Part shown: piece by piece, positions 2,509 through 32,969 of the stretch
Numbering within the stretch: position 1 is the stretch's first letter
How the letters are laid out: the number at the start of each line of letters is the position of its first letter
DNA from: a virus
Length of the DNA stretch: 33,100 bases
Strand: one strand, 5' to 3'
Virus record (IMG/VR): IMGVR_UViG_3300017917_001862
Coordinates: 1 to 33,100 of that record
Position numbers and translations under genes: made by a program
The notes under the pieces: generated by a model
Database searches by the model: none
Seen by the model: only the letters and a program-made list of their open reading frames with translations
Told to the model about the DNA's origin: nothing

Positions 2509-3933
2509 TTAATCGGTAACCTTAAATGATAGTCCGGCTGCGCCCGGATCTCCGGGACTGATTTTGGTATGTAATGCAACGTTGCCATCTACTTTACCAG
2601 GCCATAATACTTTGGTAATTAGCTTGCCACCGATAATACGTGTGAAGATTTGTACAAAGTTTTCGTCCAGTAATTCTAAGACAGTGCTTCTTAAACTAGG
2701 AATAACCCCACTGTTTATGATGCTCACCAATTCTTTAGTAACTACATAAACTAACTTACCACCATCTGTACCTTTACTTTTTTGAATACTTGGCGCGCTT
2801 ATTAATGGCAAGAACTTTTCTGGTATAGGTTCAGCACCTTTTGTTTTGATGTTTTTAAGAACCTGTCTCATATCTTCGCTATAGAATGGCAATAAATTTT
2901 TATACCGTTCCGGGACTGAATCTGGATAGTGTTTAGCTAACCAATTCATACCAGCAAAACCTTGCACTGCTGTTGGTGATACTTGAATGATATGATTGAT
3001 GAAATCAAGACCATTACCTGGTTTAATTTTAGCCTTACGCTTTTCAACTGAAGGGGAAAGACCACTCAATGATGGTGCAGCACCTGATGCTGTGCTACCT
3101 TTACCACCCTTACTACTTAGCATAATGGTGTGACCAGTTTGTGCGTTTTGTACGCCATAACTGTCAGCCAAACTAGCGTTTTGTTCACCTGGGAAAATAA
3201 CTGCTAGGTTAGAGAAGTCAGGTGACTTTAAGAATTTTAAGAATGCATCTTTCTTTGGGAAGTCAGCAATGTCTTTTGCCAATGCAAGAATACCTAAATA
3301 CTCGCCTGCGTCAATAGCAATCTTGCTTTGAATCTTTTCATCATATTGTTTAACTATAGGGATTTGTCCCTGATTCATTTGTGCGGCAACTTCTTTAATT
3401 GCTTTACCTAACTCACCTGCTTGATCCAATACTTTGTTGCTAGCAATGACATTGTACATATTGCCGGCATAAATTTCTTTATGTGCATCTAATGCACGTT
3501 TAATTTCTTCGTCAGTTGTTAATGTGATTCTATCTTTGGGCTTAGTGCCGGGCTTGTTAACAGGGTCAGCAGCAATGCCAATACCCAATGGCTGTACATT
3601 AACATCGCTAGTTGCTTGACCTTTTGCTGTTTGTAAATCTGCTTTTTCTAACTTACTTAATGAAACAGGACCTACGTCCTTCATATTAATAGTAATGCTA
3701 GGTAATGGTGCGTTTGGTTGTGTTTCCAGTTGCTGTAATGTCTGGGATACTATAGGGGCAATTCTTTTAGCCTCAGTAGGTTCTGGATAGTATTTATTAC
3801 CATCTTTGTCAATGAAGGGTGTACCTGCTTCTAGTTTTGCGACTAACGCTTGGGGTCTCCAAGATAAATGACGGGGGTCAAATAAATTTCCTGGAGTAAG
3901 TGGTGCTTCTGTTAAAAATTCGTTGGCTCTCAT
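2509..3933 (-). CDS. large protein with capsid-targeting-like N terminus; possible packaged nuclease
   Basis: The 474-residue product begins MRANEFLTEAPL, which closely resembles the T4 internal-protein capsid-targeting tag MKTYQEFIAEA that the gp21 protease cuts after L/I-x-E. Here LTE lies at residues 7-9. The body is soluble, rich in Lys, Pro and Gly. A segment near residues 254-285 (SLADSYG followed by IMLSSKGGKG) resembles the D...xK core loop of some PD-(D/E)XK nucleases, but this is a weak pattern. I do not recognise the family as a whole. A T4-late-like GATAAATA lies 20 bases before the ATG. Best guess: a virion-internal protein delivered with the DNA. Confidence 0.7.
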   Translation of the reverse strand: MRANEFLTEAPLTPGNLFDPRHLSWRPQALVAKLEAGTPFIDKDGNKYYPEPTEAKRIAPIVSQTLQQLETQPNAPLPSITINMKDVGPVSLSKLEKADLQTAKGQATSDVNVQPLGIGIAADPVNKPGTKPKDRITLTTDEEIKRALDAHKEIYAGNMYNVIASNKVLDQAGELGKAIKEVAAQMNQGQIPIVKQYDEKIQSKIAIDAGEYLGILALAKDIADFPKKDAFLKFLKSPDFSNLAVIFPGEQNASLADSYGVQNAQTGHTIMLSSKGGKGSTASGAAPSLSGLSPSVEKRKAKIKPGNGLDFINHIIQVSPTAVQGFAGMNWLAKHYPDSVPERYKNLLPFYSEDMRQVLKNIKTKGAEPIPEKFLPLISAPSIQKSKGTDGGKLVYVVTKELVSIINSGVIPSLRSTVLELLDENFVQIFTRIIGGKLITKVLWPGKVDGNVALHTKISPGDPGAAGLSFKVTD

Positions 3934-12819: not shown

Positions 12820-13364
12820 AGACTTTCTAACTTAATGATTGGTAATCCCGCACGTTTACCTTTTGTAGCAGTATCAAAGGAACCCCATAATACTTTCACA
12901 TTGGGTTTGTTATACAACATTTCTTCTGTAAAATAGGGTGCGTAGTACGCTGTCTTTTGTGCTACCCAATCAACAGAGGTCATGTATGCGATTGCCGCAA
13001 AGAATTTTGTACAGTCATGGTTACGCACAATAAAAAGATAATCACTACTGCGTTTAGTTAAACTTCCGCCTCGAAATTTAACCCTACTATCATGTGACCC
13101 AAGAGATTGTGCTACCTTTATTTCTAGTGGTACCGGGCCTGTTTGAAAATGATAAACATTGTCAGGGTCTACATCGGCTTTCCCGGGCACTACTTTTATA
13201 CCTAGCTTTTGACTAGAATAAACTGCATTGATTTGTTCAACTAATTTACTACAGAGTTCAGACCTTACCTTTTGACCAACATCATATTTGTGTGAAGGCA
13301 AATTAGCCTGCATTTCACGCAAGATATATTCAATGTCATTGCGGTCTAGATGTTGTTCAATCAT
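12816..13364 (-). CDS. putative PD-(D/E)XK-type endonuclease
   Basis: In the middle of this 182-residue protein, VDPDNVYHFQ is followed by VPLEIKVAQS, giving a D...ExK pattern typical of the PD-(D/E)XK core. After it come KFRGGSLTKRSSDYLFIV and a strand-helix ending, similar to several type II restriction-like nucleases, where an RGG...KR...DYL stretch follows the catalytic strand. I infer a nuclease, perhaps for host DNA degradation or DNA repair. Its ATG overlaps the DNA ligase stop (ATGA), which supports a DNA role. No methylase partner is in this window. Confidence 0.5.
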   Translation of the reverse strand: MIEQHLDRNDIEYILREMQANLPSHKYDVGQKVRSELCSKLVEQINAVYSSQKLGIKVVPGKADVDPDNVYHFQTGPVPLEIKVAQSLGSHDSRVKFRGGSLTKRSSDYLFIVRNHDCTKFFAAIAYMTSVDWVAQKTAYYAPYFTEEMLYNKPNVKVLWGSFDTATKGKRAGLPIIKLESL

Positions 13365-14707
13365 TTGTCATCACGGAATCGAACAAAGCGAGGGAATCGC
13401 AAACTATAAGTACCGTCTTGGTTTTGCGTAATCACATCGCATAGGATTTCAGCAGTACGACCAACAATCAAATTACTGTCAGCCCAGTAGCTGTCACGAT
13501 CCTCGTCACTGAAACCACTACCAACATTCACTTGAATGAATTTGCCATCATCCATACCCTCGCAAACAAGAGCACCGAGACGCCCAACGTTACGGCCAGT
13601 ACCTTCTTCAAGACCAACAACAGTCAAATCAACAGTAATAGTAGGCTTCCACTTCATCCAACTAGTGTTACGCTTGCACTCATAAGGAGCACTCATGTCC
13701 TTAATCATAATGCCTTCGAACCCTGCGTTCACTTGATCCTTAGCATAGCGATCCAATTGGTCACGACCTGCGGCTGTGTCAAGGTGAACCATGATGTGTG
13801 GCAATAGTTCAACATTGGGCATGTCATCAATGACACCACGCATGCCGTTAAGAATCTCTACACGCTTTTCAAGTTGAGCGTTCCAGTAGCCTCGACGGAA
13901 GTCGGCTAGTGGCATAATGTCAAAGACATTGAATACACTATCCTCAGCTTGAACATTTTCCTTGCGGCGAGCCTGCCGCATGAGTTCTTGGAATGTATTA
14001 CCAATCACTTCACCGTCTAGCACAAAGCCTTCAGTGAATGCACCACCATATTTGTTTTTAATACTACGAACCAATTTAGTAAAGTTATCACTTATTTGTT
14101 TTTCAATGTGTGTAAAGTTCTCAAAGATTTTGCCGTTTCGGCTGTAGCAAATAGTGACAACCTCACCCATGTCATTAGGGATGACCATCATAACGACACG
14201 CACACCATCCAACTTAGGTTCAAGTCGCTTGATACCCTTCATTTCAGGTCGACCTTCACTGTTAGTCGCAAGTTGACAACCAAAGATAGGAATCTCGTAT
14301 TCAGTTTTCTTACAAATTTTGTTGATGGTCTTGTCACTGATACCAGCACGAAGGTCTCGGCGAATGACTGGAGCACAGAATGTATTCCATTCCTCGCTGT
14401 CAAAACGATATGCGATTTCCTCAATAGCATTATGTGCGGCATTACCTGTGAGTTCACGCTTGGTGAGTTTAATCAACAGGTCATTGTATTCATGCCAAGG
14501 ATTCTCTGCACCTGTGACACCAACAGTGTCAGGTACTTTACGCACACCAAAAGTAATGAAGGGATTATAACAGGCTTTGACTAGACCCAAAAAGATTTGA
14601 GCATTGGTCGATCCAAGCATACACGCCTCGAGGGCTTGTTTGACAACATCCTCTTTGTGTAGGCGACTGTCAGATTCATTTAGCTTTTTAATCCACGAGG
14701 CAGACAT
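13361..14707 (-). CDS. lig: ATP-dependent DNA ligase (T4 gp30-like)
   Basis: The 448-residue enzyme seals nicks in duplex DNA using ATP. The adenylation motif is EPKLDGVR with Lys165 as nucleophile; motif III is VLDGEV, motif IV GFEGIMIKD, and motif V is SWMKWKP. An N-terminal helical region precedes it and an OB-like domain follows, ending FPRFVRFRDDK, matching T4-type ligases in layout and length. I start at the ATG at 14705-14707 because AAGGA lies just upstream; a GTG 24 bases earlier would invade the upstream gene. Likely used at phage replication forks with the exonuclease at 26865-27866. Confidence 0.93.
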   Translation of the reverse strand: MSASWIKKLNESDSRLHKEDVVKQALEACMLGSTNAQIFLGLVKACYNPFITFGVRKVPDTVGVTGAENPWHEYNDLLIKLTKRELTGNAAHNAIEEIAYRFDSEEWNTFCAPVIRRDLRAGISDKTINKICKKTEYEIPIFGCQLATNSEGRPEMKGIKRLEPKLDGVRVVMMVIPNDMGEVVTICYSRNGKIFENFTHIEKQISDNFTKLVRSIKNKYGGAFTEGFVLDGEVIGNTFQELMRQARRKENVQAEDSVFNVFDIMPLADFRRGYWNAQLEKRVEILNGMRGVIDDMPNVELLPHIMVHLDTAAGRDQLDRYAKDQVNAGFEGIMIKDMSAPYECKRNTSWMKWKPTITVDLTVVGLEEGTGRNVGRLGALVCEGMDDGKFIQVNVGSGFSDEDRDSYWADSNLIVGRTAEILCDVITQNQDGTYSLRFPRFVRFRDDK

Positions 14708-20945: not shown

Positions 20946-21109
20946 CCACCACGTCCACTACGTCTAACAACAGTTGGTCCACCAAAACCCTTACTTGGCT
21001 TTGGTGTCTTTTGATTTCCACCTTTACCTGTGATAAATGAGGGCTTGTTTTTCTTGGCTTCGTTAGCCATATTAACAAAGGGATTTTTGCTTTTCTTTTC
21101 TTCTGTCAT
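20942..21109 (-). CDS. small basic Gly/Lys-rich protein (55 aa)
   Basis: MTEEKKSKNPFVNMANEAKK..., ending VVRRSGRGG: disordered and basic. ATGA overlap with the upstream gene supports translation. The RGG-type end suggests nucleic-acid contact, unproven. Confidence 0.6.
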   Translation of the reverse strand: MTEEKKSKNPFVNMANEAKKNKPSFITGKGGNQKTPKPSKGFGGPTVVRRSGRGG

Positions 21110-21504
21110 CTTTCTCTCACTTTAATAGAATCTAAGTAGCTACGTATGTCACCGTATAGTGTCATCATCATAGCAATTTTACTGTCGTATAATCTTATAT
21201 ATGGTTTTGCCCTATCGTTCTCAACTTTTTCTGCGCCGAGAAAGTAAGGGCATTTTATTTTCTTTGATAGTTCTACCATGAATCCATAGTAGCTTGTACC
21301 TAACAATTTTATTTCACATTGATAGAATTCGATTTCTGCTTCACGAAATGCACTGTCGCCTAATGGTGTTAATCTAAGGCCATCGCCTGTGTTACCACCC
21401 ATCCACCACTCAAACATTATTTTATCTATTGGTTTATCAATATGGGGAAGTTCTGCCAATACGGCTTCTGTTATCAATCGTTTGGCAGACTTTCTATCAC
21501 TCAT
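21106..21504 (-). CDS. hypothetical protein (132 aa)
   Basis: MSDRKSAKRLITEAVLAELP..., then FEWWMGGNTGDGLRLTPLGD near residues 31-50 and YYGFMVELSKKIKCPYFLGA near 77-96. The DGLRLTxxG pattern recurs in hypothetical proteins of T4-like phages, with no known function. Overlaps neighbours by eight and four bases. Confidence 0.7.
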   Translation of the reverse strand: MSDRKSAKRLITEAVLAELPHIDKPIDKIMFEWWMGGNTGDGLRLTPLGDSAFREAEIEFYQCEIKLLGTSYYGFMVELSKKIKCPYFLGAEKVENDRAKPYIRLYDSKIAMMMTLYGDIRSYLDSIKVRER

Positions 21505-22448: not shown

Positions 22449-22746
22449 CATCTTCCTTTAATAACCATCCATGTTGTAAAATTTTATGTAACCAACTGAA
22501 TACAGGGTATTGATATTCCAATCTCCATGTACCATTTTCTTTTTTGGCTATCTTTGCTAATTGATTTTTTCCTAATCCATACATGCTAATCGACTGAACA
22601 GTAAAATCATTTCCTGTTATGGTTATAATATTTTTACCTTTTACACATTCAACTGTTACAAGGTCATTATAATCTATAACTACCCCATTGTGTTCAACAA
22701 TAACCGATCCATTAGCAGTAATATCAAATTCTATTATATTTTGCAT
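22414..22746 (-). CDS. hypothetical beta-rich protein (110 aa)
   Basis: From the ATG at 22744-22746: MQNIIEFDITANGSVIVEHN..., a series of short strands, then a helix-turn part (YPVFSWLHKILQHGWLLKED). It overlaps the end of the radical-SAM gene by 23 bases and the next gene by 35. Codon use is AT-rich like the radical-SAM pair, so it may have arrived with them. Function unknown. Confidence 0.6.
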   Translation of the reverse strand: MQNIIEFDITANGSVIVEHNGVVIDYNDLVTVECVKGKNIITITGNDFTVQSISMYGLGKNQLAKIAKKENGTWRLEYQYPVFSWLHKILQHGWLLKEDDEQDTHSKTGS

Positions 22747-24001
22747 AAAAATCAACTAAATCGGGATAAACATCTTTGAATTTCAATTTAGACAATTTAT
22801 CGAAAATTTTGTTGTGTTGAATAAATTTTTCTCTTAAATCCTCTATATCATCTGGCTCTTTTTCTTCCAATAGTATCATAATGGACTTGATATGATTTTC
22901 TATAGCTTTTGTTTCATGTCTCACAAGATTTAAATAATTAGTTTGGTTTTCCGTTTGTTCCAATATAGATGCATATTTATTCTTGAATTTTTTACTTATT
23001 TTTTGTTTTAATTCTTTGGGCAATACATTTATTTTTAAAAAATCAGGGTTAGACAAAAAATTACTATCTATTGGAATTTTATTTTCTAATGCAAAATCAA
23101 TGATGGTATCGTAATGTTGAATACTAAGTGCCTGCGGTACTGTCCTTAAAACAATTCTAGTGTTATCATGGATATTATTGATAAAAGACAGAATGTTATT
23201 TTTAATAAGTTGAAAGTTGCTTCCGGTTCTAATATAATCGTTGGATGTGTGAAAATTTTCTGCGCTAATCTCAATATGAACTGATTTAAATAATTTAAAT
23301 TTATCCAATAAATCCTTATTATATATAGATCCATTAGTTACGAAAGTAAGATGAAAATCGGTTCTATTAATATCAACACACCAATTAATAAATTCAAAGA
23401 ATTTTTTATGGTAAAGAGGTTCTCCGCCCATAAAGTGTATGGATAATAATTGATTGCTGTTTTTAACAATATCTAAAAATTGCAGCCATTTCTTTTCGTC
23501 ATTTGTCCAATCAATTAAGGTATTGTTATCATCTATCAACTTTAATTTAATGTAATTGCTTTTTAATTGGCTACTGAATTCCGGAAAGCACATTCTACAG
23601 CTAAAATTGCAGAGGTTACTTAATGTGACATGTAAGAAAGCAGGATACATATATTCTGTTTTACCTGATAGTCTAGAATAACACGGACTTTGTTTTAACT
23701 GTTCGTCCATGTAATCACCGCCAAATATTGCACCTTGAATATTTCTTCTGTTGCGAAAACTAATAATATTTTGTTTTTCTATGTTGTAGCAGTTTACACA
23801 CCCTTCAACTTCATGCCCTGACTTTATTTGTTCTCTTACTTTTTTGGGTAACGGTCCTTTATTAAACCATTCAATCAATGATAGTTCAGATGTTTCCCAT
23901 GTATCTTTTTTAGCACCGTGGCAATATGTCATGCTACCATCAGCATTGATTCTCATTTCATACCACGGCGATATGCAAGTAACGTTATTATTTGGAAACA
24001 T
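22724..24001 (-). CDS. radical SAM protein with N-terminal twitch-like cluster domain
   Basis: 425 residues from the ATG at 23999-24001. The radical-SAM motif CxxxCxxC is CNFSCRMC (positions 131-138), which holds the 4Fe-4S cluster that cleaves S-adenosylmethionine. Before it, Cys9, Cys27, Cys68 and Cys71 (CISPWYEMRINADGSMTYC and GCVNC) match the auxiliary-cluster layout of the N-terminal twitch radical-SAM family. HFMGGEPLYHKKFFEF follows, as in SPASM/twitch enzymes. These enzymes often modify peptides or sugars; the substrate is unknown. The start overlaps the previous radical-SAM gene by 14 bases. The region is visibly more AT-rich than its neighbours. Confidence 0.85.
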   Translation of the reverse strand: MFPNNNVTCISPWYEMRINADGSMTYCHGAKKDTWETSELSLIEWFNKGPLPKKVREQIKSGHEVEGCVNCYNIEKQNIISFRNRRNIQGAIFGGDYMDEQLKQSPCYSRLSGKTEYMYPAFLHVTLSNLCNFSCRMCFPEFSSQLKSNYIKLKLIDDNNTLIDWTNDEKKWLQFLDIVKNSNQLLSIHFMGGEPLYHKKFFEFINWCVDINRTDFHLTFVTNGSIYNKDLLDKFKLFKSVHIEISAENFHTSNDYIRTGSNFQLIKNNILSFINNIHDNTRIVLRTVPQALSIQHYDTIIDFALENKIPIDSNFLSNPDFLKINVLPKELKQKISKKFKNKYASILEQTENQTNYLNLVRHETKAIENHIKSIMILLEEKEPDDIEDLREKFIQHNKIFDKLSKLKFKDVYPDLVDFYAKYNRI

Positions 24002-25424
24002 CAAATAACATTCCTTTATAATTATCTATATATTCTGCCTTACGCATTTGTATTTGATGCCAATCTACATCTTTGAATTTGGTATTTGAAATGTATTCTT
24101 CTGAGTATCCCAGATTCTTTAATGACATTCCAATTTGCTTAGACAAATATATTCTATCCTGTTGCGCTATTTTATTAAAATCAGTAGCCAACTGTTCAAC
24201 TTGGTTATATGTAGTGTAATCATTTTTCCAATTAATTGTATCGGATATGTTGGTCGTACCCATATCTACATAACCATAATCTGTATAGTTTTTTCCCAAT
24301 TCACTGTTAAAGGCAACTCTTTCATTCTTATACAATCTCAATCCATGAAATATAAAACTATGTAATGGTATAGTTTCATCCATTAATTGATTGAATGTGT
24401 AATGCATCGAGTCCACAGATTCCTCGGGTAGTCCTAATATAAAACTACCATGTAACATCACTTCATTTTGAAAACGGTTTCTGATTTTCTCTATTGTTTT
24501 AATTTGTTTATCTCTATCAAAACCTTTACCGATAATCAATCCTGTACGTTTGTTTAGTGTTTCTATACCGAAATACATTCCACGTAGACCGATATCATAC
24601 AGTTTATCTATTAGGTCGTTGTTTTGTGCTATTAAATCTAATCTGGTATAGGCCCAGAACTTAGGCCTAAACGATAATCTTTTTATAGTTTCATGCAATA
24701 TGTTTAGTTTGTATTCATTGTCATTGAATGTATCATCGAGGATATAAAAATCTTGTATACCAAATCTATCATAACTTGATTGCAATTCATTGTATAGATT
24801 ATCTGTGTGTCGTATAAAATCTAAATTCTGTTTGCCATTTAACGGGTAACTGCAAAACTTGCATTTGAATATACACCCTCGGGCGATTTCTATCGGTAAT
24901 ACTCTTGCGCCACCAACATCTAAATTAGTCCATTCAAAAGTGCTATTGACAAAATCATACTCAGAGTTTTGCCTGCCGTCAATAATATTGACTCCGTAAA
25001 TGTTTTTGTATGCGTTTAGTGGGCTATTAAATTTTAAATGATTAGCCAGTTGAATAATACTAGTTTCACCGTAACTGATAATACTGTAATCAATGTTTTT
25101 ATTATTGATATTTGCGTTGGCTTTTGTTCCGCCTAAAACAATCTTACAGTTTGGATTTATAGACTTGATATAATCTACTAATTCAGATTCATAGCTTACA
25201 AGTCCAGGCATAAAAGTATTACTGAACCCTACAAATAATGTGTTACTGTTTAAATAAAGGTCAACAACTTTCTTGGTATCATTTAACGATAATGAATGTA
25301 GGTGATCCACGACCAAGCAAGTATATCCCTGCTGTCGTAGAGTGTTTGCTATTTTATAAGCACCTATCGCTTTATATACTGTAACAGTGTCAACTACATC
25401 AGTAAATATTATCGCATCATACAT
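23988..25424 (-). CDS. B12-binding-domain-type radical SAM protein
   Basis: 478 residues. The N-terminal 150 residues look like the cobalamin-binding fold of this enzyme class (KIANTLRQQGYTCLVVDHL, then NCKIVLGGTKANAN and YSIISYGETSIIQLANHL), but the usual DxHxxG cobalamin-ligand motif is not visible. The radical-SAM motif is CIFKCKFC (Cys184, 188, 191) in ARGCIFKCKFCSYP; further marks are FYILDDTFNDN and GMYFGIETLNKRTG. Related enzymes carry out methylation and ring chemistry in natural-product or lipid pathways. TAATG overlap with the upstream gene and a 14-base overlap with the second radical-SAM gene show co-expression. Confidence 0.85.
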   Translation of the reverse strand: MYDAIIFTDVVDTVTVYKAIGAYKIANTLRQQGYTCLVVDHLHSLSLNDTKKVVDLYLNSNTLFVGFSNTFMPGLVSYESELVDYIKSINPNCKIVLGGTKANANINNKNIDYSIISYGETSIIQLANHLKFNSPLNAYKNIYGVNIIDGRQNSEYDFVNSTFEWTNLDVGGARVLPIEIARGCIFKCKFCSYPLNGKQNLDFIRHTDNLYNELQSSYDRFGIQDFYILDDTFNDNEYKLNILHETIKRLSFRPKFWAYTRLDLIAQNNDLIDKLYDIGLRGMYFGIETLNKRTGLIIGKGFDRDKQIKTIEKIRNRFQNEVMLHGSFILGLPEESVDSMHYTFNQLMDETIPLHSFIFHGLRLYKNERVAFNSELGKNYTDYGYVDMGTTNISDTINWKNDYTTYNQVEQLATDFNKIAQQDRIYLSKQIGMSLKNLGYSEEYISNTKFKDVDWHQIQMRKAEYIDNYKGMLFDVSK

Positions 25425-31118: not shown

Positions 31119-32969
31119 ATGAAGATTCAACAATTAATGGAAGGCGCAACGCCCAAATTACCCGGAGCATTCGCCGGAGTACAAGTTATGACACCTCAGC
31201 AATTCGTTGCTAAGAGTGCGGAAGGTGAAGAACCGAGCCCAGAAGAAGATGTAGCGGAAGGCTCAAGCGAGAACTACAAGTTTCACATGCTTGCTTTCTT
31301 AAAGGACGGTAGCATGAAAGAATTCAATGTCATTGCCAACGGTGACAGAAATGCCAAAATTCTTGCTAAAAAGAAACTAATAGAAAAAGGCTACACTAAT
31401 ATTTACAAGATTTATGTTCAGGCACATAGCCCTGTTCGTGGACCCGTTAATTATAAGATTAACAAAAGGGACGCTTTGGAAGAGCAAGGTGTGGCGGAAG
31501 GCTCCGAGTTTGGTGCCTACTATTATGAACAACTAGCACAGCAGACTTTTGACATCAATCCTAATCTACAAGACGAAAATGAAATACTAAATCTTGGCTA
31601 TAAAATCGCCAAAGGTGAATTAGGATCAAGGGCACAAGGTATGTTCCGTGATGAAGATTTCCCCAGTGACTTTGTAAGTGCCTATGGCTATTTGAAGAAG
31701 CAAGGTGTGGCGGAGGGCTTGGGCAAAGACCTAAAGCGTTTGGCTACAGGAAAAGATGTAAAAAGTCGTGCTGGTCAGGAGATTGCTAAAGCACAACAAG
31801 CCAGCATGACAGGTGATAACAAAACCGCACACAAGCACTTCAAGCGTTATGACAAGTTAGACAAGTTAGCAAATAAAGAGCAAGGTGTGGCGGAAGCAGC
31901 CGGTGACCTACTAGGTGCCCAAACTCGTCCTTTCGGTGGTCAAGAATTTCAAGACTATATGGGTCGTATTGCTGGTCGTGAGAAAGCAAAGACTGACAAG
32001 TATAAGTTACCATACATTCACCGTTCAAGTGTAATCAAGTATTACAATGAAGAAGGCAAACGCTACGATGAAGGTCAGATTGTAGCAGCGTTGAAACAAC
32101 GTCCAAAGAAATTGTTAAAGCAAAATGAAAAGATGAAGCACAGTAATGGTGAACTAGAACAGTTCTTCAATATTGGCTTTGCGGCATTAGTGGGTATCGC
32201 AGTTAACGAAAGTGATGACAGCTTAGTTATCGTTAACACATGTCCAGGGGCTGGTTCATGTAAAGTAGATTGCTTTGCTATGAAGGGCGGTAAAGTTCAG
32301 TTTGAAGGTCCATGGTTAAGTGACGGTCGTATTCTTACATATCTATTGAATGATCCAAATGGCTTCTTCAATCAACTAAGCAACGAAATTTCTAAAGAAG
32401 AAAAAGCAGGTCAGAAGGGTGGTTACAAAGTAACTATTCGTTGGCACGATGCCGGTGACTTCTTTAGTCCTGAATATGTTGACATGGCATTCAAACTAGC
32501 AGAGAAGCATCCTAATGTACAATTCTATGCGTACACAAAGATGGGTGATGTTGCTGTTGGTTCTAAGCCAGACAACTTCATTATCAACTGGAGTGAAGGT
32601 GCTCATACTTCACAAGAAAAGAAAGTTAAGGCAGCTGATCCAAACTTAGAAAAGACAAAGAACAGTAGAATTGTTCCTACAAATCTATTCTATGACTTGT
32701 TGGTTAAGGACGAAAAGAAGAACTTAGTTAAGGGTGCAGAAGGCCAATGGCAAGTCATACCTGACAAGTTACCTGAACTAAAACAACGATTAGCAAAAGA
32801 GTATGGCATCAGTGCTAACTCTATTCTATCTTATGATGAATGGGATCGTAAGACTGATGGTGGTAAGAAAGAAACTCCTGTCAAGTATAATGTTATCATC
32901 ACTCCTGGTGAGCCAGACATTACTGCCAAGAGTCATGGCGTACTAAGTACATTATTATTGAAGCACTAA
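31119..32969 (+). CDS. mosaic protein: capsid-targeting-like tag, VAE-separated cassettes, GP88-like domain
   Basis: 616 residues. The start MKIQQLMEGATPK resembles T4 internal-protein tags (cut after L-x-E; here LME, residues 6-8). Four internal VAE sites, at residues 45-47, 125-127, 197-199 and 257-259, split the first 260 residues into segments of about 40-80 residues; the last three read QGVAEG or QGVAEA. The remainder (about 300-616) is a GP88-like domain: NTCPGAGSCKVDCFAMKGGK (Cys375, 381, 385) and TIRWHDAGDFFSPEYVD. GP88 proteins occur in actinobacteriophages; their role is unknown. The Cys pattern suggests a metal or Fe-S site. The ribosome-binding site is weak. Confidence 0.75.
   Translation: MKIQQLMEGATPKLPGAFAGVQVMTPQQFVAKSAEGEEPSPEEDVAEGSSENYKFHMLAFLKDGSMKEFNVIANGDRNAKILAKKKLIEKGYTNIYKIYVQAHSPVRGPVNYKINKRDALEEQGVAEGSEFGAYYYEQLAQQTFDINPNLQDENEILNLGYKIAKGELGSRAQGMFRDEDFPSDFVSAYGYLKKQGVAEGLGKDLKRLATGKDVKSRAGQEIAKAQQASMTGDNKTAHKHFKRYDKLDKLANKEQGVAEAAGDLLGAQTRPFGGQEFQDYMGRIAGREKAKTDKYKLPYIHRSSVIKYYNEEGKRYDEGQIVAALKQRPKKLLKQNEKMKHSNGELEQFFNIGFAALVGIAVNESDDSLVIVNTCPGAGSCKVDCFAMKGGKVQFEGPWLSDGRILTYLLNDPNGFFNQLSNEISKEEKAGQKGGYKVTIRWHDAGDFFSPEYVDMAFKLAEKHPNVQFYAYTKMGDVAVGSKPDNFIINWSEGAHTSQEKKVKAADPNLEKTKNSRIVPTNLFYDLLVKDEKKNLVKGAEGQWQVIPDKLPELKQRLAKEYGISANSILSYDEWDRKTDGGKKETPVKYNVIITPGEPDITAKSHGVLSTLLLKH
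31251..31262 (+). repeat. VAEG site 1 in the 616-aa protein
   Basis: Codes V-A-E-G at residues 45-48. Its codons (GTAGCGGAAGGC) differ slightly from the three later copies, which share an identical 16-base core. Confidence 0.6.
31483..31498 (+). repeat. QGVAE site 2, 16-base core repeat
   Basis: AGCAAGGTGTGGCGGA, the same 16 bases as at 31699 and 31879, in the same frame (E-Q-G-V-A-E, residues 122-127). Confidence 0.8.
31699..31714 (+). repeat. QGVAE site 3, 16-base core repeat
   Basis: Identical 16-base core AGCAAGGTGTGGCGGA in the same frame (K-Q-G-V-A-E, ending at residue 199). Confidence 0.8.
31879..31894 (+). repeat. QGVAE site 4, 16-base core repeat
   Basis: Identical 16-base core; followed by A-A-G instead of G. 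It lies before the linker to the GP88-like domain. Confidence 0.8.

Follow-up and report, generated by a model that had tools for sequence, protein, structure and literature searches.

The internal proteins IPI-IPIII and Alt of phage T4 carry a capsid-targeting sequence (CTS), are processed by gp21 and are ejected into the host (PMC9026906, PMC3012670, PMC12373910). The internal proteins are small (76 aa for IPI*), highly variable head cargo; each has its own gene and its own CTS, a short propeptide (PMC9026906), and is mostly cleaved a single time close to the N-terminus. The specificity described for T4 gp21 is cleavage after L/I-x-E, not V-x-E (PMC9026906). Polyvalent proteins combine unrelated conflict-type domains in one multi-domain chain and, in the cases that are known, are packaged into the head (Iyer et al. 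2017, PMC5512222); they consist of known, larger domains, some of which are freed by embedded peptidases, and the authors of that paper draw an analogy to polyproteins (PMC5512222). The relevant sections describe neither a repeated junction nor a DNA-conserved boundary for polyvalent proteins (PMC5512222). In T-even tail-fibre adhesins, in-frame segments at one tail-fibre locus are swapped by recombination between conserved motifs (Tetart 1998, cited in PMC3012670). Integron cassettes are small exchangeable units that end in a recombination-associated sequence and form combinatorial arrays; each is an entire gene that a tyrosine recombinase mobilizes.

The stretch analyzed here (the window, 33,100 nucleotides) is a 33.1-kb virus record from IMG/VR and is probably a fragment. 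One of its ORFs has the following layout, in which the arrow marks the presumed scissile bond.

31119..32969, + strand: polyprotein ORF, 616 aa, with a CTS-like start, three cassettes and a GP88-family C-terminal part
31119..31142, + strand: MKIQQLME↓, a CTS-like N-terminus judged by sequence, with a prohead-protease-type site, LME↓G, at its end
31143..31259, + strand: host segment, conserved (GATPKLPGAFAGVQVMTPQQFVAKSAEGEEPSPEEDVAE), with the ancestral site DVAE↓G at its end, present in the cassette-free relatives L003 and L006
31260..31499, + strand: cassette 1, residues 48-127, no confirmed relative elsewhere
31483..31498, + strand: junction element copy 1 (AGCAAGGTGTGGCGGA), encoding QGVAE↓G
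31500..31715, + strand: cassette 2, residues 128-199, also in L407, L408/L409 and L410
31699..31714, + strand: junction element copy 2, encoding QGVAE↓G
31716..31895, + strand: cassette 3, residues 200-259, also in L411-L418
31879..31894, + strand: junction element copy 3, encoding QGVAE↓A
31896..32966, + strand: conserved C-terminal part, with the GP88 domain PF17338 at residues 333-501 (Pfam E=1.3e-24)

A preliminary description had reported four VAE sites followed by G or A in this ORF, three of them sharing an identical 16-mer, with segment borders at residues 48-127, 128-199 and 200-259. These claims held exactly: the sites occupy residues 45-47 (DVAE↓G), 125-127, 197-199 and 257-259, with P1 Glu codons at 31257, 31497, 31713 and 31893. 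We add one more site of this type, the fifth (MKIQQLME↓G, Glu codon 31140-31142), which closes the CTS-like N-terminus; this start, MKIQQLME↓GATPKLPGA, resembles the T4 capsid-targeting sequence. The codons of the first VAE site (31251-31259) differ (GATGTAGCGGAA) because it is an old host site lying outside any cassette. The exact 16-mer AGCAAGGTGTGGCGGA is present in three in-frame copies, and the number of matches stays at three when up to three mismatches are allowed over both strands of the 33.1 kb (0.16 expected); three copies were reached in 0 of 100 shuffles of the window. An AlphaFold model of the whole protein has a mean pLDDT of 65.6, with the junctions within or beside low-confidence stretches, and cassette 3 is predicted to be a helical hairpin. 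Foldseek comparison of the model with the PDB gave no match at E<=0.001, a sequence-based search for solved structures of the protein returned none, and no Pfam peptidase was found in the ORF.

Several other genes of the window deserve mention. A phage UV-endonuclease (UvdE, PF03851; 30010-31041, - strand) adjoins the polyprotein gene on the opposite strand, and two neighboring radical-SAM proteins are encoded at 22724-25424 (- strand), one of them weakly matching a B12-binding domain at a score under the Pfam cut-off. CTS-like starts are seen on three further ORFs, all on the - strand, namely 2509-3933 (MRANEFLTE↓A), 13361-14707 (MSASWIKKLNE↓S) and 21106-21504 (MSDRKSAKRLITE↓A); these might encode additional head-internal proteins.

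Like the T4 internal proteins, the system combines a short, putative N-terminal targeting peptide ending in xxE↓ with a T4-type prohead protease, and its cassettes are comparable to them as small, highly variable cargo; unlike in T4, the cassettes stand in series within one CTS-tagged carrier and have a DNA-conserved junction in common. The multi-domain make-up recalls polyvalent proteins, whereas the cassettes are mostly tiny and without a Pfam match, and the presumed protease would act in trans. In-frame swapping between conserved motifs is shared with the T-even adhesins, but the present cassettes are exchanged among unrelated proteins, and their motif codes for a likely protease site. Unlike integron cassettes, these are fused in frame, and no tyrosine recombinase was found in 12 large genomes. 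Thus CTS-tagged internal proteins, polyvalent proteins (PMC5512222) and motif-based segment swapping (PMC3012670) are each known separately. What appears to be new is the serial arrangement of exchangeable in-frame cargo cassettes with a DNA-conserved junction coding for a presumed protease site. Like the preliminary description, which knew of none, we found no described system of this kind: neither this motif nor phage polyproteins cut by a prohead protease had a match in the literature searched, which was mostly open access and largely excluded bioRxiv.

A scan of IMG/VR for the 16-mer CAAGGTGTGGCGGAAG returned 174 matches in at least 120 phage contig stretches. All but one of the matches (173/174) lie in frame within ORFs of at least 100 codons, and 36 of the 120 stretches hold two to four copies, usually separated by 150-690 bp. 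A synonymous 16-mer used as a control was likewise found in at least 120 stretches, but only ever as single copies. Individual ORFs contain up to seven GVAE/GMAE junctions, and more when variant junctions are counted. Among 252 junctions with unique flanks, a set found partly through the 16-mer itself, conservation extends from about -5 to +14 relative to GVAE and no further; the Val codon is GTG in 228 and GTA in 23, and some phages have ATG in its place. Along one polyprotein (L416:1536-5615), many junctions with ATG for GTG (CAAGGTATGGCGGAAGG, MAE↓G) recur. Where the junction varies, it usually still reads [VILM]xE followed by G/A/S/D.

The codons of the junction are more uniform than the protein requires. 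In relatives picked without use of the 16-mer, 47 of 68 unique-flank GVAE junctions read GGTGTGGCGGAA, whereas the codon usage of these phages, with GTG at 12% of Val codons and GCG at 7.7% of Ala codons, predicts 0.38%. In homologous protein pairs of 50-92% identity, the same codon is kept for Q, G, V and A in 90-96% of cases at junctions vs 52-81% in cassette bodies, with only a small difference for E (77% vs 71% elsewhere). Junction codons are uniform beyond codon usage, so that the element acts like a unit of DNA, whether through selection or through repeated copying, which cannot be distinguished with these data. Junction variants were not significantly more alike within genes than between genes (p=0.15), and ongoing within-gene homogenization is not shown. 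Chance and codon bias were rejected as the source of the recurrence of the 16-mer, on the basis of the shuffles, the control 16-mer and the codon statistics. Spread of the element into bacterial genomes was also rejected: an extended 21-mer had a single match in 257 Gb, on a Rhizobiales contig, which is probably due to chance. That match (L454:4048-4068, - strand) lies in frame in an ORF resembling cytidine deaminase, and a deaminase domain is also present in two phage polyproteins.

Relatives of the window protein are encoded in 478 IMG/VR stretches, of which the best 80 were examined. Their N-terminal and GP88 parts are conserved, while the middle segments vary in kind and in number, between zero and about seven; in L039 and L061 an identical set of segments is arranged in a different order. 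Cassette 2 is 90% identical in DNA to L407 over window positions 31483-31718, and cassette 3 is 95.4% identical to L411 over 31702-31896, each in a different host protein, with the homology starting and stopping at the 16-mers. Cassette 2 recurs in L408/L409 and in a distant GP88 protein of L410, and cassette 3 in several other protein contexts (L412-L418); with the exception of L410, the carriers inspected for both cassettes are proteins other than that of the window. The canonical left or right junction is missing from some copies (L412, L413 and L417). For cassette 1, 26 pattern matches were obtained elsewhere and none was confirmed.

A wider census of 190 non-redundant ORFs yielded 171 cassettes bounded by G[VM]AE at both ends, which fall into 135 families with a median length of 71 aa. 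In 38 of 40 homologous cassette pairs with full flanks, both neighbors are unrelated. Between proteins, internal alignment ends lie within 6 aa of GVAE in 186 of 434 cases vs 36 of 434 random positions. Moreover, L003 provides an empty site, reading DVNE↓APGDLLG where the window has DVAE↓, 636 bp and then ↓AAGDLLG; it lacks exactly these 636 bp (212 codons), and its flanks share 88-92% identity with the gene in the window. A second empty/filled comparison involves a carrier unrelated to the GP88 one: L416 has an array of about 820 aa between QISE↓ and QVNE↓SYYPMGK, at a position occupied in L154, L179 and L250 by a single [VILM]xE↓GYYPMGK or GYHSMGK site. These results show that cassettes are shuffled between otherwise unrelated proteins with breakpoints at the junctions. 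The proposal in the preliminary description that codon identity exceeds protein-level need held, and that of DNA-level copying or recombination is strongly supported by segments in foreign contexts, breakpoints at junctions, empty sites and codon conservation. Of the outcomes it had named as refuting, the two genomic ones, segments always together in one fixed domain and a repeat absent elsewhere, did not occur: searched separately, cassettes 2 and 3, though not cassette 1, were found apart in other contexts, and the 16-mer is widespread in phage stretches.

A fixed multi-domain protein was rejected, as cassettes occur in other contexts and other orders. For polarity, with the junction at the 3' end of each cassette, there is no more than a visual suggestion, since two forms of the empty site exist in the GP88 family. 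Among isolated phages (INPHARED), no match to the L411 polyprotein was found, and a match in Variovorax V45v66 was rejected as an array-bearing isolate, being a lone zinc-ribbon-like stretch without an array.

The relatives with large contigs (21, up to 525 kb) were inspected for head-maturation genes. A Peptidase_S77 prohead protease (PF03420) together with a gp23-type capsid protein (PF07068) is carried by 11 of the 21; PF03420 was not found in the 33-kb window, which is a fragment. In G001 the genes for a portal-like protein, a ~300-aa protein, the protease (around 326840-327486), the scaffold and the capsid protein stand in this order. The protein richest in sites, in both G001 and G002, is the scaffold, with 13 and 15 [LIV]xE[GAS] sites (p 4e-11 and 9e-13, respectively). 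Its sites follow [LIVM]xE↓S/A, with L, V, I and M favored at P3, V being enriched there, and A commonest at P2; VAE↓G itself is present in several copies in several scaffolds. S and A are enriched at P1', but Gly is not (5% vs 7% in the proteome). Capsid propeptide sites read LLE↓S, LLE↓G, ILE↓N and LAE↓S. Junction sites thus resemble those in the scaffold and major capsid protein (MCP) propeptide of the same phages, and the scaffold and capsid sites, taken with the specificity of gp21, therefore make VAE↓G a plausible site for the protease of these phages. Cleavage there remains an inference; none has been observed and there are no proteomic data.

CTS-like N-termini of varied sequence are found in GP88 relatives (MNFKELFE↓G, MKFIELME↓G). 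Outside the GP88 family, a CTS-like start is present in 61 of 114 complete cassette proteins vs 128 of 854 other proteins (15%), so that only 54% of the former have a recognizable CTS. A capsid-targeting role for this peptide is inferred from its sequence form alone. The L416 carrier is homologous to EST35_0206 of phage PA5oct, which is annotated as 'structural protein, ESI-MS/MS'; packaging and injection of the cassettes themselves are inferred. The earlier suggestion that a tagged precursor is cleaved to release several small cargo proteins accordingly has only circumstantial support, consisting of the T4-type protease, a scaffold with like sites, the CTS-like starts and the MS-verified virion homologue of one carrier.

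Most cassettes, including those of the window, have no reliable match. Some polyproteins contain GNAT, dCMP/cytidine deaminase, methyltransferase, ParB-like (ParBc_2) or DnaJ-type zinc domains, and LysM/GH19 (chitinase) and DUF6321 domains also occur. In a scaffold-like polyprotein (L128:7960-10899), one stretch (NPWNEGYWAGHRQEDRDCPYPP...) matches ribosome modulation factor (RMF; PF04957, E=3.2e-5, just below the curated cut-off), and the pattern GY.AG..G..NPY..W..G was seen by eye in several other cassettes; it is possible that such phages inject ribosome-hibernation-like proteins. An ADP-ribosyltransferase-like segment (DNYLYHATMPAGMMRILRTGIIKATDR) was likewise noted by eye, without a Pfam match, in a protein with a nucleotidyltransferase-like N-terminus (L082:1-1680), and an HExxH-like segment in one carrier family only (L035, L038 and L040). 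In size and diversity the cassettes are reminiscent of the T4 internal proteins, of which three inhibit type IV restriction enzymes (PMC12373910). A role as injected anti-defense or takeover proteins is inferred by analogy, and no cassette function has been demonstrated.

Based on these data, we propose as the likely explanation that these are exchangeable in-frame cargo cassettes whose junction doubles as a prohead-protease site, and that they are packaged, cleaved and probably injected. The carrier would be a conserved head-directed protein of T4-related giant phages, here GP88 with a capsid-targeting N-terminus, holding an in-frame array of small unrelated cassettes, typically ~60-105 aa each, that end in (K/E)QGVAE↓G/A coded by a nearly invariant ~16-18 bp. 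At the DNA level, the junction would offer shared homology for the insertion, loss and exchange of cassettes between carrier genes and between phages, most likely through the phage's own RecA/UvsX-type homologous recombination. At the protein level, a gp21-type protease would cut the packaged precursor at the junctions inside the prohead, and the freed small proteins would be ejected with the DNA in the manner of T4 internal proteins. The recombination pathway is inferred; the simplest account is that cassettes recombine homologously at the junction they have in common, with reading frame and cleavage maintained by selection. A RecA-family protein was detected in 11 of 12 large genomes, and the tyrosine integrase (PF00589) and serine resolvase (PF00239) families were absent from all 12, with controls detected. 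A bolder reading, which we also consider probable, if slightly less so, is a combinatorial cargo system in which the ~16 bp serve both exchange and cutting; phages would build, package, cut and inject interchangeable protein sets out of polyproteins, with the cassettes taken from a mobile pool that phage species have in common.

The closest competitor retains in-frame mobile cassettes and dispenses with processing: the junction would be a recombination-friendly linker, and the polyproteins would remain intact multi-domain proteins of the polyvalent kind. All DNA-level evidence fits this account without cleavage, the lack of Gly enrichment at P1' in the scaffold agrees with it, and there is precedent in polyvalent proteins that are packaged without cleavage, the N4 virion RNAP among them (PMC5512222). 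However, varied junctions usually keep [VILM]xE then G/A/S/D, empty carrier sites are already [VILM]xE↓A/G, MCP and scaffold of the same phages carry the same type of site, and CTS-like starts are enriched, and we consider the account unlikely. We judge somewhat less probable again a dedicated site-specific recombination system, att-like or integron-like, that recognizes the 16-mer. The sharp conservation of 16-18 bp between unrelated flanks and the use of rare codons speak for it, but no integrase or resolvase family was found in the 12 large genomes, 11 of which have a RecA-family protein, and the element tolerates GTA, ATG and GCA and can be absent on one side.

Much less probable still is that the conserved codons serve translation, for instance as internal starts (GTG/ATG at the Val codon) that make separate proteins. 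GTG is used in 228 of 252 junctions, and ATG, also a start codon, substitutes in some phages; nonetheless, 23 of the 252 use GTA, which is no start codon, the frame is kept through whole arrays, and the purine-rich AAGG ends one base before GTG, which is too close for a Shine-Dalgarno sequence. Finally, the pattern could be an artefact, either of assembly chimeras at the repeat or of a common peptide recurring by chance. The contigs are metagenomic, and assemblers can be misled by repeats, although a repeat of this size is shorter than usual assembly k-mers. Near-identical arrangements in separate assemblies (L408/L409 and L044/L045/L046), the preserved frame and a control 16-mer without clustering all but exclude this possibility.

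If cleavage fails, the finding would be reduced to a new variant of phage mosaicism. If the proposed cargo system is correct, it would unite a phage equivalent of viral polyproteins with a pool of exchangeable units like that of integrons, and would offer a natural design for packaging multiple proteins in phage heads. The in-frame motif QGVAE↓G, CAAGGTGTGGCGGAAG, offers a simple tag for the borders of more than 100 families of small, probably injected proteins of no known function, and the families so tagged are candidates for new anti-defense or host-takeover proteins. The set of small proteins that is carried, and probably injected, varies from phage to phage, and how phages keep up a diverse injected arsenal becomes testable.
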